A stretch of 64,000 bases of DNA, taken from the NCBI RefSeq assembly GCF_900112255.1, contig NZ_FOLE01000006.1, positions 186,001 to 250,000 on the forward strand, in the 5' to 3' direction. The position numbers and the translations under genes are program-made. Positions 26,950-32,367 of this stretch are shown in pieces; the stretch's first letter is position 1, and each line of letters opens with the position of its first letter. This DNA comes from Flexibacter flexilis DSM 6793 (GTDB lineage Bacteria > Bacteroidota > Bacteroidia > Cytophagales > Flexibacteraceae). A model generated the notes under the pieces. The model was not told the origin of the DNA and did not search any database. It saw only the letters and a program-made list of their open reading frames with translations.

Positions 26950-28470
26950 TTACACTTCCAAAAGCAAACGAGTTGGGTCTTCGAGGAGTTGTTTTACACG
27001 TACCAAGAAACCAACCGATTCGCGACCGTCGATAATGCGGTGGTCGTAAGACAATGCCACGTACATAATCGGACGGATAACTACTTGACCACCAACAGCC
27101 ACAGGGCGTTCTACGATATTGTGCATACCCAAAATAGCCGATTGAGGCGAGTTGATGATTGGCGTAGAAAGCATCGAACCGAAAATACCACCGTTAGTGA
27201 TTGTGAAGGTTCCGCCTGTCATTTCTTCGATAGTCAATTTGTTGTCGCGTGCGCGAGTAGCCAAACGAACTACTTCTTTTTCCAGTTGAGCAAAGCTCAT
27301 ATCTTCCGCATTGCGAATTACTGGCACTACCAACCCTTTTGGCGCAGATACAGCGATAGAAATATCTGCGAAGTCGTTATAAACGATTTCGTCGCCATCA
27401 ATGTAAGCATTTACAGCAGGGAATTCTTTAAGAGCTACGGCGCAAGCTTTCGTGAAGAACGACATAAAGCCCAAACCTACTGAGTGTACTTCTTTGAATT
27501 TGTCTTTGTATTTGTTACGCAAATCCATGATTGGCTTCATATCTACTTCGTTGAAAGTAGTAAGCATCGCCGTTTCATTTTTCACAGCTACCAAGCGGCG
27601 CGAAACTGTTTTACGCAAAGGCGTAAGTTTTTGGCGACGTTGGTTGCGGCTTCCGCCAAATGCACCAGAAGTAACTTGTGCAGGCGCAGCGGCAGCAGGT
27701 GCAGCAGCTGGTTTGGTTGGAGCTGGCGTAGCTTTAAGCGCATCTTCTTTCGTGATGCGGCCACCCACACCCGAACCGATTACTTGTGCGGCTTCCATGC
27801 CTTTTTCGGCCAAAATTTTGCCAGCAGCTGGCGAGGCATGACCCGAAGCATACGACGAAGAAGCAGCACTTCCCGCAGCGGCAGCAGGTGCAGAAGGCGT
27901 AGCGGCAGGAGCAGCAACCGACGCGCCAGCACCTTCGATGCGACAAATCACATCGCCGATGGCAAGCGTAGTGCCCGACTGAGCCACGATGCGCAACACG
28001 CCCGAAGCCTCAGCATTCAATTCAAAAGTTGCTTTGTCTGATTCTATTTCGCAGATTACCTCGTCTTGATTAACGAAATCGCCATCTTTTTTAGACCAAG
28101 TACCTACCGTAACTTCAGCGATAGATTCGCCTACCGCAGGAACTTTCATTTCTATTGTTTTGGCAGCAGCTGCAGCTGGAGCAGCAGCGGCTGGCGTTTC
28201 GGCAGGAGCTGCTGCTCCAGCTGCAGCACTTGCGCCAACATTTTCAAGTTTTGCAATAAGCGCACCGATAGGTAGAGTTTCGCCTGCTTGCGCTACGATG
28301 CGTAGTACGCCTTCGGCTGGAGAATTGAGTTCAAAAGTTGCTTTGTCAGATTCAAGTTCGCAAAGAACCTCGTCTAATTTTACTACATCGCCATCTTTTT
28401 TGTTCCAAGTGGCAATTGTTACTTCCGTGATAGATTCGCCTACTGTAGGCACTTTAATTTCTAAGCTCAT
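26950..28470 (-). CDS. odhB: 2-oxoglutarate dehydrogenase E2 (dihydrolipoyl succinyltransferase) with two lipoyl domains
   Basis: The 506-residue protein has two N-terminal lipoyl domains, with lipoylated lysines in ESDKATFEL at about residues 43 and 146, joined by Ala/Pro-rich linkers. A peripheral subunit-binding domain follows ([31 protein letters not shown]) and then the catalytic domain from about 270, with the active histidine in [11 protein letters not shown] near the end. It transfers the succinyl group to CoA in the citric acid cycle. Two lipoyl domains are more than the single one of the classical SucB. The E1 partner lies 1.2 kb upstream, separated by an Rpn-type gene. A decayed Rpn tail lies 60 bases before its start. 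Confidence 0.9.
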
Positions 28471-28531
28471 CGGTGTTATATTTTGTGATAATTGAAGAAA
28501 TTTATTGATAAATAAACCCCAACCTGAAACA

Positions 28532-28645
28532 TTAGCGCAAATCGTTTATTTCCGCTTCCGAAAGATTGGTGTAAAGTGTAATTTTCGTAATTGTTTCGCC
28601 CGCCGCCAACATTTTCTTGGCCATGTAGAGGGCTTTTTGCAATTG
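28532..28645 (-). pseudogene. Orphan C-terminal tail of an Rpn-family gene
   Basis: Read on the minus strand, 28645 to 28532 encodes 37 codons ending in a stop, including ALYMAKKMLAAGET and [13 protein letters not shown]. This matches the last ~33 residues of the intact Rpn gene just upstream (LLEVAKSMKADGEP and YTGLSENEINNL). A stop codon (28646-28648) precedes the stretch and no start codon or body is attached. It therefore looks like the residue of a second, mostly lost Rpn gene or a displaced tail cassette. Confidence 0.75.
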
Positions 28646-28702
28646 TTAAAAGTTTATTCTTAACGTATTTTTATGAGTCCAGAAATTGACAATACTTGTT
28701 GT

Positions 28703-29530
28703 TTACAAATTATTTATCTCATTTTCGGATAATCCCGTGTATCTTTTAATTTTTTCGATAGGCTCGCCGTCGGCTTTCATTGATTTGGCAACTTCCAGAA
28801 GCCCTTCTAACTTTCCTTCATCAAAAGCCGTATCAATTACGCCTTTTAAGTCGCGGTAGGTTTTCAAACTTTGTTCGTACTCGTCTTTTTCCGCGCTGCT
28901 GTATTGCGCTATTTCGGCTTTGTTAAAAGCCCGCGCAAAAACATCATCTTTGAAAATTTCGGGAATACTCTGGAAATCTTCTAAGTGTTTGATAAAATAC
29001 AACCATTTGTCCAAGCGCGTAACAAGTGCCTGCTCTGGTTTGTCAAAATGCGGCATTTCCAGATAGACAAACTTTAGTTTATCATAGAAAACCTGATTGT
29101 TTTGGTCTTTCAATTGCACGGTATGAACTACCTCGTTTTTCTGTTGCTTGGCTTCGTCAAACGTAAAATCCAAAATGCCGATGCAATAAACGGCCTTTAG
29201 TTGATAATTCCATTTGCCTTGCTCGGCTTGCTCCTGAATCGGAAACGAAGCGTAATAAATGGTTCTGTCTTTAAAATAATTCTGTTTTGCTTTCTGTAAT
29301 TCTACTATAATTTTTTCACCGTTTTTGTTTTCGCAATAAATATCGTAAACGGCTTTTCGGTCGTCTTGGCTCAAACCCAACCTTTCTTTGTCGTTGAAAG
29401 TCAGGTCTGTAATGTAACTGTCGGGCAACAAACTCGTCAGGAAATCAATAAGAATGTCCTTACTGGCTTCCTCTCCAAAGATTTTCTTAAATCCAAAATC
29501 CGTAAATGGATTGACGTATTTGGCTTTCAT
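28703..29530 (-). CDS. Rpn-family recombination-promoting nuclease (PD-(D/E)XK, transposase-like)
   Basis: The 275-residue protein starts with MKAKYVNPFTDFGFKKIFG, the hallmark of the Rpn/PDDEXK nuclease 'putative transposase' family. The nuclease core is visible as KAVYDIYCENKNGEKIIVELQKAKQNYFKDRTIYYAS (in parts): the aspartate, the E-x-Q pair and following lysine fit the catalytic motif. The tail (EVAKSMKADGEP, YTGLSENEINNL) is the usual helical end. Family members in E. coli raise RecA-independent recombination and cut DNA; many behave as mobile or selfish genes. It sits between odhA and odhB, where an operon would be expected, and an orphan copy of its tail lies 58 bases downstream. Confidence 0.85.
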   Translation of the reverse strand: MKAKYVNPFTDFGFKKIFGEEASKDILIDFLTSLLPDSYITDLTFNDKERLGLSQDDRKAVYDIYCENKNGEKIIVELQKAKQNYFKDRTIYYASFPIQEQAEQGKWNYQLKAVYCIGILDFTFDEAKQQKNEVVHTVQLKDQNNQVFYDKLKFVYLEMPHFDKPEQALVTRLDKWLYFIKHLEDFQSIPEIFKDDVFARAFNKAEIAQYSSAEKDEYEQSLKTYRDLKGVIDTAFDEGKLEGLLEVAKSMKADGEPIEKIKRYTGLSENEINNL

Positions 29531-29582
29531 TGTGTTATAACTTTTATTAAAAAGTCATTTCAATATTTACATAAAAAATTGA

Positions 29583-29632
29583 GAATCAACTTCCCGAAAG
29601 TATTTAAGCTTTCGGGAAGTTGATTCTTTTTT
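29583..29632. terminator. Very long perfect hairpin after odhA
   Basis: GAATCAACTTCCCGAAAG (29583-29600) pairs perfectly with CTTTCGGGAAGTTGATTC (29609-29626), an 18-bp stem with an eight-base loop. T runs are present on the plus strand at once and on the minus strand after four bases. It lies directly after the odhA stop and separates odhA from the Rpn gene. Confidence 0.85.
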
Positions 29633-29637
29633 ATTGA

Positions 29638-32367
29638 TTAGATAGTAAACGCTTTTTTCAAGATTTCCTCTTGCTCTTTGGCGTGTACTTTGCCATAACC
29701 AGTTGCAGGCGAAGCACTTGGCTTACGCGATACGATGTCTAATTGTACATAACGATATTGGCGTAACACGTAGCTCCACGCGCCCATGTTTTCAGGCTCT
29801 TCTTGTACCCAAGATACTTTCGGATTTTTGTATTTGTTGAGTAAGTCGTACACCTGTTTGGTTGGGAATGGGTGCAATTGCTCCACGCGAATAATGGCCA
29901 CGTCGTTGCGTTTCTCGGCTTGTTGTTTTTCGTACAAATCGTAATACACTTTGCCTGAGCACAAAAGCACTTTTTTCACTGCTTTAGGGTCTGCGTCTGC
30001 GTAAGCATCGCCGATTACCTCGCGGAAATGACCTTGTGTAAACTCCGACAACGGCGACACAGCCAACGGATGACGCAACATAGATTTTGGCGACATCACG
30101 ATACAAGGCTTACGGAACGGCCATGTAAGTTGGCGACGCAACAAGTGGAAGAAGTTTGAAGGAACTGTAATGTTCGCTACTACCACGTTGTATTCGGCGC
30201 ACAATTGCAAGAAACGTTCAGGACGCGCGTTTGAGTGTTCTGGGCCTTGGCCTTCGTAGCCGTGTGGTAACAACATTACCAAACCGTTCATACGTTGCCA
30301 TTTCGTTTCCGAACAAACTACGAATTGGTCAATCATTACTTGCGCACCGTTCGCGAAATCACCGAATTGTGCTTCCCACAATACCAAAGCGTTAGGGTTG
30401 GCCATTGCATAACCAAACTCAAAGCCTAACACGCCGTACTCAGAAAGTAATGAGTTATAAATATGGAATTTACCTTGATTTTCAGATAAATGCGCCAAGC
30501 TGTTGTGCGGCACGTTGGTAACCGAATCGTTTACTACGGCATGACGGTGCGAGAAAGTACCGCGTTGTACGTCTTGGCCGCTCAAACGAACCGTTTTGCC
30601 TTCCGACAAAATAGAACCGTAAGCCAACAATTCGGCCGCTGCCCAGTTGAGTTGTTTTGTCTCGAAGAACATTTCTTGACGGTCTTTCAACAATTTCTCA
30701 ACTTGTTTGATTGGCTTAAATGTTTCAGGAACAGTCGTAAGTGCTTTGGCTACTTGTACCACAGTTTCTTCCGAAATGCCTGTTTCTGGCGATTTGTCGA
30801 AGTCGCTTTGTGTCGAGCGACGCAACTCTTGCCATTCTTTTTCCATTGGTTGGTAAGCGTACGGCAATGGTTTTTGTTTTACCAAATTCAGGCGGTCTTG
30901 CAACAAATCACGGAATTCTTTGTCCATGTTTTCGGCCAATTGTGCATCTACATCGCCACGCTCAATCAATTTTTTGTTATAAACTTCGCGCGGATTTGGG
31001 TGCTTGGCAATGATGTTGTAAAGAGCTGGTTGCGTGAATTTTGGTTCATCGCTTTCGTTGTGTCCATGACGACGGTAACAAACCATATCTACGAAAATAT
31101 CGCCTTTGAATTTTTGGCGGTATTCGCTGGCCAATTGTACGGCGTAAATTACAGCTTCTGGGTCGTCGCCATTTACGTGAATAACTGGCGCGTCAATGAT
31201 TTTGGCAACGTCTGTGCTATAAATCGCCGAACGAGCGTCTGTAAAGTCTGTTGTAAAACCAACTTGGTTGTTGATTACAAAATGAAGCGTACCGCCAGTG
31301 TAGTAACCTGCCAATTTCGCCATTTGTGTCACTTCGTACACAATGCCTTGACCCGCTACGGCAGCATCACCATGAATCAAGATTGGCAATACTTTAGAAG
31401 CGTCTCCGCCGTATTGTGCATCTACTTTAGAACGTGCAAAACCTTCTACTACAGGGTTTACCGCTTCAAGGTGAGAAGGGTTTGGCGCAAGTTTAAGGTC
31501 AACTTTTTTACCAGTTGGCGTAACTACTTGGCTCGAATAACCCATGTGATATTTTACGTCGCCGTCACCCATCGTAAGGTCTGGCGTTGCTGTACCTTCA
31601 AATTCGTTGAAGATGTTTTCATACGTTTTGCCCATAATGTTGGCCAATACGTTGAGGCGGCCACGGTGTGCCATGCCAATAATCACTTCTTCTACGCCCA
31701 AATCGGCACTGCGCGAAATGATGGCATCAAGTGCGGCGATGGTTGTTTCGCCACCTTCCAAAGAGAAACGTTTTTGGCCGATGTATTTGGTATGCAAGAA
31801 GTTCTCGAATACTACGGCTTCGTTTAGTTTGGAAAGAATGCGTTTTTTTGTATCCAAAGAAGGCTTAAATTCTAAGGCTTCTTTCTCAATTTTGGCACGC
31901 AACCACTGCAATACTTCTGGTTCGCGAATGTACGTGTATTCAAAACCAACCGTACCAGTATAAATGTATTTGAGCGATTCTACGATTTTGCGAAGCGGAG
32001 CTGTTCCGATGCCAATTTCTGCACCTGCCGCAAAAGGCGTATCAAGGTCGGCATCGCTTAGGCCAAAATCAGCCAAAGACAAAAATGCGTGACGATCTTT
32101 ACGAGGGCGAACAGGGTTTGTTTTTGATTCGAGGTGTCCGCGTGTGCGGTAGGCGTTAATAAGTGCCAAAACCTTAATTTCTTTGTCAGAAACACCGCCA
32201 GAAACAGGGGCAGCTTGTCCATTTTCGCTGAATTGTTGCGAAAACTCGAAACCTTCAAAGAATTTTTGCCAGCTAATATCTACAGAGCTGGGGTCTTGCT
32301 TGTACGCAGCGTATAGCTCATCAAAAAAAGAGCCATGACCGTTTGCGATATAGGAATATTTATCCAT
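29638..32367 (-). CDS. odhA: 2-oxoglutarate dehydrogenase E1 component
   Basis: The 909-residue thiamine-diphosphate enzyme decarboxylates 2-oxoglutarate in the citric acid cycle. The N-terminus (YIANGHGSFFDELYAAYKQD, then DISWQKFFEGF) is the E2-binding segment. The cofactor motif is IHGDAAVAGQGIVYEV followed by FVINNQVGFTT near residues 325-370. GMAHRGRLNVLANIMGK and RRHGHNESDEP are further E1 landmarks. The C-terminal pyrimidine-binding domain includes HAVVNDSVT and FGYAMANPNALVLWEAQFGDF. It is closed by its own strong hairpin, so it is probably not transcribed with odhB, 1.2 kb away on the same strand. Confidence 0.95.
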   Translation of the reverse strand: MDKYSYIANGHGSFFDELYAAYKQDPSSVDISWQKFFEGFEFSQQFSENGQAAPVSGGVSDKEIKVLALINAYRTRGHLESKTNPVRPRKDRHAFLSLADFGLSDADLDTPFAAGAEIGIGTAPLRKIVESLKYIYTGTVGFEYTYIREPEVLQWLRAKIEKEALEFKPSLDTKKRILSKLNEAVVFENFLHTKYIGQKRFSLEGGETTIAALDAIISRSADLGVEEVIIGMAHRGRLNVLANIMGKTYENIFNEFEGTATPDLTMGDGDVKYHMGYSSQVVTPTGKKVDLKLAPNPSHLEAVNPVVEGFARSKVDAQYGGDASKVLPILIHGDAAVAGQGIVYEVTQMAKLAGYYTGGTLHFVINNQVGFTTDFTDARSAIYSTDVAKIIDAPVIHVNGDDPEAVIYAVQLASEYRQKFKGDIFVDMVCYRRHGHNESDEPKFTQPALYNIIAKHPNPREVYNKKLIERGDVDAQLAENMDKEFRDLLQDRLNLVKQKPLPYAYQPMEKEWQELRRSTQSDFDKSPETGISEETVVQVAKALTTVPETFKPIKQVEKLLKDRQEMFFETKQLNWAAAELLAYGSILSEGKTVRLSGQDVQRGTFSHRHAVVNDSVTNVPHNSLAHLSENQGKFHIYNSLLSEYGVLGFEFGYAMANPNALVLWEAQFGDFANGAQVMIDQFVVCSETKWQRMNGLVMLLPHGYEGQGPEHSNARPERFLQLCAEYNVVVANITVPSNFFHLLRRQLTWPFRKPCIVMSPKSMLRHPLAVSPLSEFTQGHFREVIGDAYADADPKAVKKVLLCSGKVYYDLYEKQQAEKRNDVAIIRVEQLHPFPTKQVYDLLNKYKNPKVSWVQEEPENMGAWSYVLRQYRYVQLDIVSRKPSASPATGYGKVHAKEQEEILKKAFTI

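Follow-up and report, generated by a model that had tools for sequence, protein, structure and literature searches.

Why are two odh genes on the same strand separated by a nuclease gene, and what is the short open frame behind this gene? The window, i.e. the whole stretch of 64,000 nt that was analysed, is part of a draft genome of 4.25 Mb, in which it spans bases 186001-250000 of contig C6. According to the list of open reading frames, its minus strand carries odhA, an Rpn gene, an orphan frame of 36 codons and odhB in this order, and odhA and odhB are 1167 nt apart. The flanking genes are, judged by their protein families, presumably odhA and odhB. The features are as follows (positions in the window):

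29638..32367, minus strand: odhA (2-oxoglutarate dehydrogenase E1), ORF of 909 aa that aligns with the like gene of relatives; upstream neighbour
29582..29627 (about), no strand given: hairpin, probable terminator after odhA (fold of 29570-29645)
28703..29530, minus strand: intact Rpn-type PD-(D/E)XK nuclease gene (RpnL), 275 aa, ATG start (PF12784, TIGR01784, 7TH0)
28706..28828, minus strand: C-terminal RpnS-like domain within RpnL, last 41 codons before the stop, boundary approximate (7TH0 match; match of profile A1 at C6:214706-214837)
28643..28702, minus strand: spacer of 60 nt from the Rpn stop codon to the orphan TTG (three-frame reading)
28532..28642, minus strand: second, orphan Rpn tail of 36 codons and a stop; probably what is left of a stand-alone RpnS copy (profile A1, TIGR01784, 7TH0)
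26950..28470, minus strand: odhB (dihydrolipoyl succinyltransferase E2), ORF of 506 aa that aligns with the like gene of relatives; downstream neighbour

A preliminary description of this DNA had expected odhA and odhB side by side, and relatives bear this out. The odhA-odhB gap was measured in 99 relative loci, 95 of which contain both genes. These 95 loci come from two collections, include some genomes twice and, judged by their titles, a few non-Cytophagales (e.g. Pedobacter); no genome of the same genus is among the matches listed. In 88 of the 95 loci, odhA and odhB are contiguous. The gap comprises 3-152 nt in 87 loci, and L105 is contiguous, too, its apparent gap of 409 being a duplicated lipoyl domain. 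Other inserts are present in the remaining seven loci: by Pfam, a PIN-domain gene (L108), a DUF3368/PIN-like gene (L111), a nucleotidyltransferase with an OLD-like ATPase (L126), a DUF2204 nucleotidyltransferase with an AbiEii match below the cut-off (L150) and a GNAT gene (L127); furthermore, a GNAT gene called by its similarity to the L127 insert (L133) and a 623-aa protein without Pfam match (L136). Four of the seven (L108, L111, L126, L150) are toxin- or defence-like. Among the same-family genomes with both odh genes in one stretch, seven of eight are contiguous (G004, G005 and G009 as well as G001, G002, G008 and G010, the last four with at most 172 nt); the exception, G003, has the same 623-aa protein as L136 at the junction.

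No Rpn gene was found at the odhA-odhB junction of the relative loci looked at, among them the seven with inserts. The Rpn gene of the window is an insertion that this junction shows in none of the relatives looked at; the junction occasionally hosts small genes, several of them of toxin or defence type, and may be a recurrent landing site. With regard to a target-site duplication or terminal repeats, one 9-base AT-rich word, TTTATTGAT, is shared by positions 28501 and 29630, which chance could give. The hairpin behind odhA is real: the fold of 29570-29645 has -32.4 kcal/mol (z -11.1), a value equalled by 0 of 200 shuffles. It comprises an inner stem of 19 perfect pairs, not the 18 bp claimed before, and an 8-nt loop, and would terminate transcription after odhA. 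A search with the pattern of the Bacteroidota-type promoter motif yielded 9 exact matches in the window versus 4.8 expected, none of them at the Rpn/orphan locus.

What does the inserted gene encode? It matches all 229 positions of PF12784 (PD-(D/E)XK nuclease-family transposase domain) with E 2.9e-69 and the Rpn model TIGR01784 with E 1.7e-33, both above cut-off. Its residues 236-272 match PDB 7TH0, the RpnA small protein, with E 0.026, the sole PDB hit up to E 10. PADLOC gave no match. By these sequence profiles, the gene product is a member of the RpnL nuclease family and a predicted nuclease.

Rpn proteins (COG5464) of E. coli and C. difficile have a C-terminal domain that is also made as a small protein, RpnS; in E. 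coli, RpnS was shown to block the full-length nuclease RpnL (PMC10327210). The same report describes RpnS also as a separate gene, e.g. ypaA behind rpnE in E. coli, as well as downstream rpnCS copies. The tagged ypaA small protein is reported as made, and RpnL itself might, as its authors speculate, trigger the recombination by which such copies arise (PMC10327210). The preliminary description missed that the tail is the antitoxin domain RpnS and that separate RpnS copies behind rpn genes have already been published. ypaA starts 12 nt behind rpnE; in RefSeq, ypaA is a pseudogene and rpnE inactive.

An internal start before the antitoxin domain, as for an intragenic RpnS, was considered for RpnL, too. 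No ATG, GTG or TTG is present within the 22 codons before SLKTYRD in the window gene. Likewise, start codons before the domain are not enriched in the 40 genes with this motif (of 80 distinct genes), with ATG in 10 of 40 versus a background of 25%. Therefore, intragenic RpnS translation is not evident here, and an internal start within these 22 codons was rejected.

The orphan frame has the strand and reading frame of the Rpn gene, which it follows directly. Profile A1, which was built from 13 intact Rpn tails of this genome (the tail of the window RpnL being one row) and from which the orphan was left out, picks up the orphan with E 9e-7 when the whole genome is searched. The orphan matches positions 242-272 of the 273 positions of TIGR01784 (E 1e-3, below the whole-protein cut-off) and covers residues 14-44 of the solved 49-residue RpnS chain 7TH0 (E 0.036, the sole PDB hit up to E 10). 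Pfam at E 1 assigns none of the isolated tails to an Rpn family. As sequence matches, the 7TH0 hits of the window Rpn and of the orphan are each weak alone and become convincing together with position and family profiles. The 37 codons (stop included) are a bodiless second Rpn tail, as had been proposed; they adjoin the Rpn gene, although at a distance of 60 nt instead of 58. A chance similarity might be conceived for a frame of only 36 codons. It was rejected as extremely improbable, both by the A1 score, to which the orphan itself did not contribute, and by position, strand and frame behind an Rpn gene.

Among the tails of 148 genomes, the local Rpn tail is closest to the orphan (58%, 24.4 bits; next 53%). 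The preliminary description had suggested looking for an Rpn tail elsewhere that matches the orphan better, and none was found in these genomes at E 0.01. The orphan and the local tail share 20 of 35 residues, synonymous sites are saturated and dN is 0.44. Due to this divergence, descent from the local Rpn gene is not proven.

How such a tail might have arisen is illustrated by the same genome, which has 21 PF12784 matches. Two further Rpn genes, C2 and C7, carry a complete second tail directly behind them. The ORF of the C2 copy begins 2 nt past the Rpn stop and is 94% identical to the gene's own end over 88 columns. The C7 ORF begins 15 nt past the stop and opens with ten residues identical in origin to the beginning of the nuclease gene, which lead into the antitoxin domain. 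In both cases, the end of the local gene itself has plainly been copied in tandem. At C2, gene end and copy differ by 9 synonymous changes and 1 nonsynonymous change (neutral expectation 16.8 nonsynonymous, P 9e-7), and at C7 by 18.5 synonymous and 11.5 nonsynonymous ones (neutral expectation 35.8, P 1e-6). These neutral expectations assume half of the synonymous changes per copy and ignore gene conversion. Both copies have the complete domain and an own ATG and are under purifying selection. Ten pairs of gene end and copy were tested altogether. Five are significant (C2, C7, G131 twice, G026) and five are not (G074, P 0.11; G125:C109, P 0.23; G130, P 0.052; G029, P 0.74; E. coli, P 0.054).

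This genome also contains two solitary tails, L066 (C5:202960-203046) and L067 (C6:151307-151414, which continues in another frame), neither of them with a visible body in the surrounding 1.5 kb or so, and an Rpn body that stops after 172 residues and is devoid of the antitoxin domain (L040, C14:40565-41047).

Is the orphan a relic or a working gene? It lacks the SLKxYRD segment and, compared to the complete domain, the first, repeat-bearing helix. When the 60-nt spacer was read by eye in three frames, none of them showed any remnant of the front half that the domain is missing. Only TTG 28642 (36 aa) or the inner ATG 28624 (30 aa) can serve as start. Because SLKxYRD is absent, the spacer is without trace and no other start is available, we consider the orphan most likely a relic, probably a worn duplicate of the antitoxin end of the local Rpn gene. 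SLKxYRD is kept in the copies at C2, C7, G131 (two), G074 and G125:C109. It is also missing from the stand-alone frames L177 and L181, partly from G130 and from the G026 copy, which belongs to another subfamily; therefore, its loss alone is no proof of decay. At C2, C7, G074, G125:C109, G130, G039:C82 and E. coli ypaA, the copy has a start codon that overlaps the nuclease stop codon or lies at most 15 nt behind it, and the G131 and G026 copies are, like the orphan, without such a close start.

A simulation shed light on the history of the frame. Neutral drift by at least 0.5 changes per site from the local tail rarely keeps a frame as open and as similar as the orphan (P 0.0035 or less); at 0.5 changes per site, 0.35% of the runs do so. 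This speaks against a simple relic of the local tail. According to this model, selection has probably acted on the orphan during a large part of its past, be it before or after it became an orphan. Such past selection would be compatible with a peptide that still works or with an origin from a different functional Rpn tail.

The first of these would be a minimal RpnS peptide of 30 aa (ATG 28624) or 36 aa (TTG 28642) that still binds the local or another Rpn. The frame is open, most of the near-invariant A1 positions are kept as judged by eye, the simulation speaks against long neutral drift, and the solitary tail at C5:202960-203046, which is also very short, has an ATG at about the same place. 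However, the first part of the domain including SLKxYRD is missing, N takes the place of the TGL-motif glycine that 12 of the 13 A1 rows share, and of the 49 residues of the solved chain the orphan covers 14-44. In addition, the frame is 60 nt away from the Rpn stop without a convincing start, and no exact match of the promoter pattern is available. A working peptide is accordingly considered unlikely.

Another rival reading is a displaced tail: by recombination, a new Rpn gene, or just a new tail, would have come to lie ahead of an old one, whose tail was thereby orphaned. Orphan tips of Rhs and CdiA genes, bodiless 3' modules behind a full gene, provide the analogy. The orphan has indeed diverged from the local tail much further than the C2 and C7 copies have from the tails in front of them, and two pairs of Rpn genes from this genome combine unlike bodies with like tails. 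These pairs emerged from a comparison of bodies and tails in 80 distinct genes, for which sequences with masked bases, cut-off sequences and duplicates had been dropped. The bodies of L044 and L050 are 27% identical over 89 aligned residues and their tails 76% (DNA 79% over 62 nt), and L039 and L045 have unlike bodies and tails with 60% identity. They are the two highest-scoring pairs of this type. Nevertheless, no significant excess of same-genome pairs was detected at three thresholds when genome labels were permuted within subfamilies (P 0.35, 0.49 and 0.59; in the first case, 10 pairs observed versus 8.5 expected). A cassette-like exchange of tails, as envisaged in the preliminary description, is thus not backed by a significant signal within genomes, even though two own pairs look exchanged. 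Furthermore, the tail most similar to the orphan remains the local one, and no body fragment was seen next to the orphan. A displaced tail is judged as improbable as a working peptide. Of the earlier proposal that the orphan is a scar of an older Rpn gene, the relic part probably holds, whereas overwriting of a different Rpn is less likely, given that the closest tail is the local one and that C2 and C7 are tandem copies.

We return to the worn duplicate and to the frequency of such copies. The survey comprised 89 fetched Rpn genes with downstream sequence, a subset of all existing ones: 68 from relatives and 21 from this genome including the window gene, the tail-less C14 gene and a C12 gene at a contig end. 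L196 and L222 are the same stretch, L218 was dropped since it had no downstream sequence, and L211 has only 97 nt downstream. A tail-only copy is located behind 6 of the 89 genes (window, C2, C7, G029:C1, G026:C678 and G039:C82, the last one cut by the contig end). Other downstream matches are a full or cut second Rpn (L196/L222, L241, L251, L255, L256) or a frameshift in the gene's own tail (L244, L259), and one weak opposite-strand hit at own_L033 was taken as spurious. The G029 gene is 69% identical to the window Rpn over its full length, and the second domain behind it is likewise of full length but interrupted by two stops. This decayed copy is a possible intermediate toward the state in the window.

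Subsequently, 292 genomes were searched with six stand-alone copies; cases were taken from the matches listed, and 20 stretches were chosen for short frames. Among the matches listed, copies behind full genes were found in at least G131 (two), G074, G125:C109 and G130:C159. Three copies have a start codon that shares bases with the nuclease stop codon (ATGA at G039:C82 and G130, TAATG at G074). In at least five short ORFs, the start of an Rpn protein is joined to the antitoxin domain and the nuclease core is missing. These core-deleted mini-genes are located at C7 in this genome and at G039:C29, G125:C109, G125:C267 and G086:C56, and their leader corresponds to the first 10-20 residues of the toxin. 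The G039:C29 mini-gene has its stop a few residues before the usual end, and that at G125:C267 has extra residues between leader and antitoxin domain. A matching start is present in the full gene next to the mini-gene at C7 and at G125:C109. Selection acts on the C7 mini-gene, and the test for G125:C109 is not significant (P 0.23). A comparison of the C7 mini-gene with plasmids gave 11 records, all below 60% identity.

Reading of the alignments disclosed that copy and neighbouring toxin differ by whole 4-residue repeats in 8 of 10 pairs. More repeats are present in the copy at C2 (+1), C7 (+2), G131:2666669 (+1), G074 (+1) and E. coli ypaA (+1), fewer at G131:2560395 (-2), G125:C109 (-2) and G130 (-5), and the number is equal at G026 and G029. 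In the published work, one extra 4-residue repeat in RpnCS or in RpnCLS abolished repression, and repression was restored when both had it (PMC10327210). Because 8 of 10 pairs differ by whole repeats, the copies may no longer match their neighbour toxin. The core-deleted mini-genes and the repeat-mismatched copies are new in this survey. It might be hypothesized, tentatively and with rather less than even confidence, that the Rpn antitoxin of Cytophagales was repeatedly split off, in several cases by deletion of the core, that some copies were kept by selection and may neutralise other, older or incoming Rpn variants, and that the orphan of the window represents an end stage. The split-off copies would be freed from the obligatory co-evolution of toxin and antitoxin in the intragenic layout.

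Two further arrangements were encountered. In L169 (G014:C1:69334-69459), an Rpn-type tail without nuclease body is joined to a DUF2281-like protein (E 1e-4, below cut-off). Among the matches listed, the 1.2 Mb genome G046 has tandem arrays of four to six Rpn genes on C1 (974845-979909, 495173-502272, 1035096-1040455).

For the window, the following course of events is considered the most likely one. In this lineage, odhA and odhB were separated by the insertion of an Rpn toxin-antitoxin gene. Its 3' end, the RpnS antitoxin domain, would then have been copied in tandem behind it, as at C2, C7 and rpnE-ypaA. Such copies can give rise to separately translated RpnS, which in E. coli binds and blocks the full-length nuclease, and the ancestor of the orphan may have had the same antitoxin role. 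The copy in the window appears to be old: it would have lost the front half of the domain and a clear start codon, so that a presumably functionless relic of 36 codons was left. An apparently meaningless scrap is in this way tied to a toxin-antitoxin and anti-phage family.

How does the locus compare to known systems? In contrast to the orphan tips of Rhs and CdiA, the complete analogues in this genome closely duplicate the local tail instead of being modules of another kind. With the RpnL/RpnS toxin-antitoxin family (TIGR01784, PF12784), the window gene shares the nuclease family and the C-terminal domain. An intragenic antitoxin as in this family is not evident here, since start codons before the domain are not enriched in the 40 genes mentioned above. 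The closest likeness is to E. coli rpnE-ypaA, where a tandem copy of the C-terminal domain likewise follows the rpn gene directly and with the same orientation; the window is a further case of the published separate RpnS copies. The window copy is shorter and more diverged than ypaA and lacks the start region, whereas ypaA keeps its start Met and the repeat helix. An antitoxin domain duplicated behind its toxin, as in E. coli, is also found in a distant phylum, with recent, maintained and apparently worn stages in one genome.
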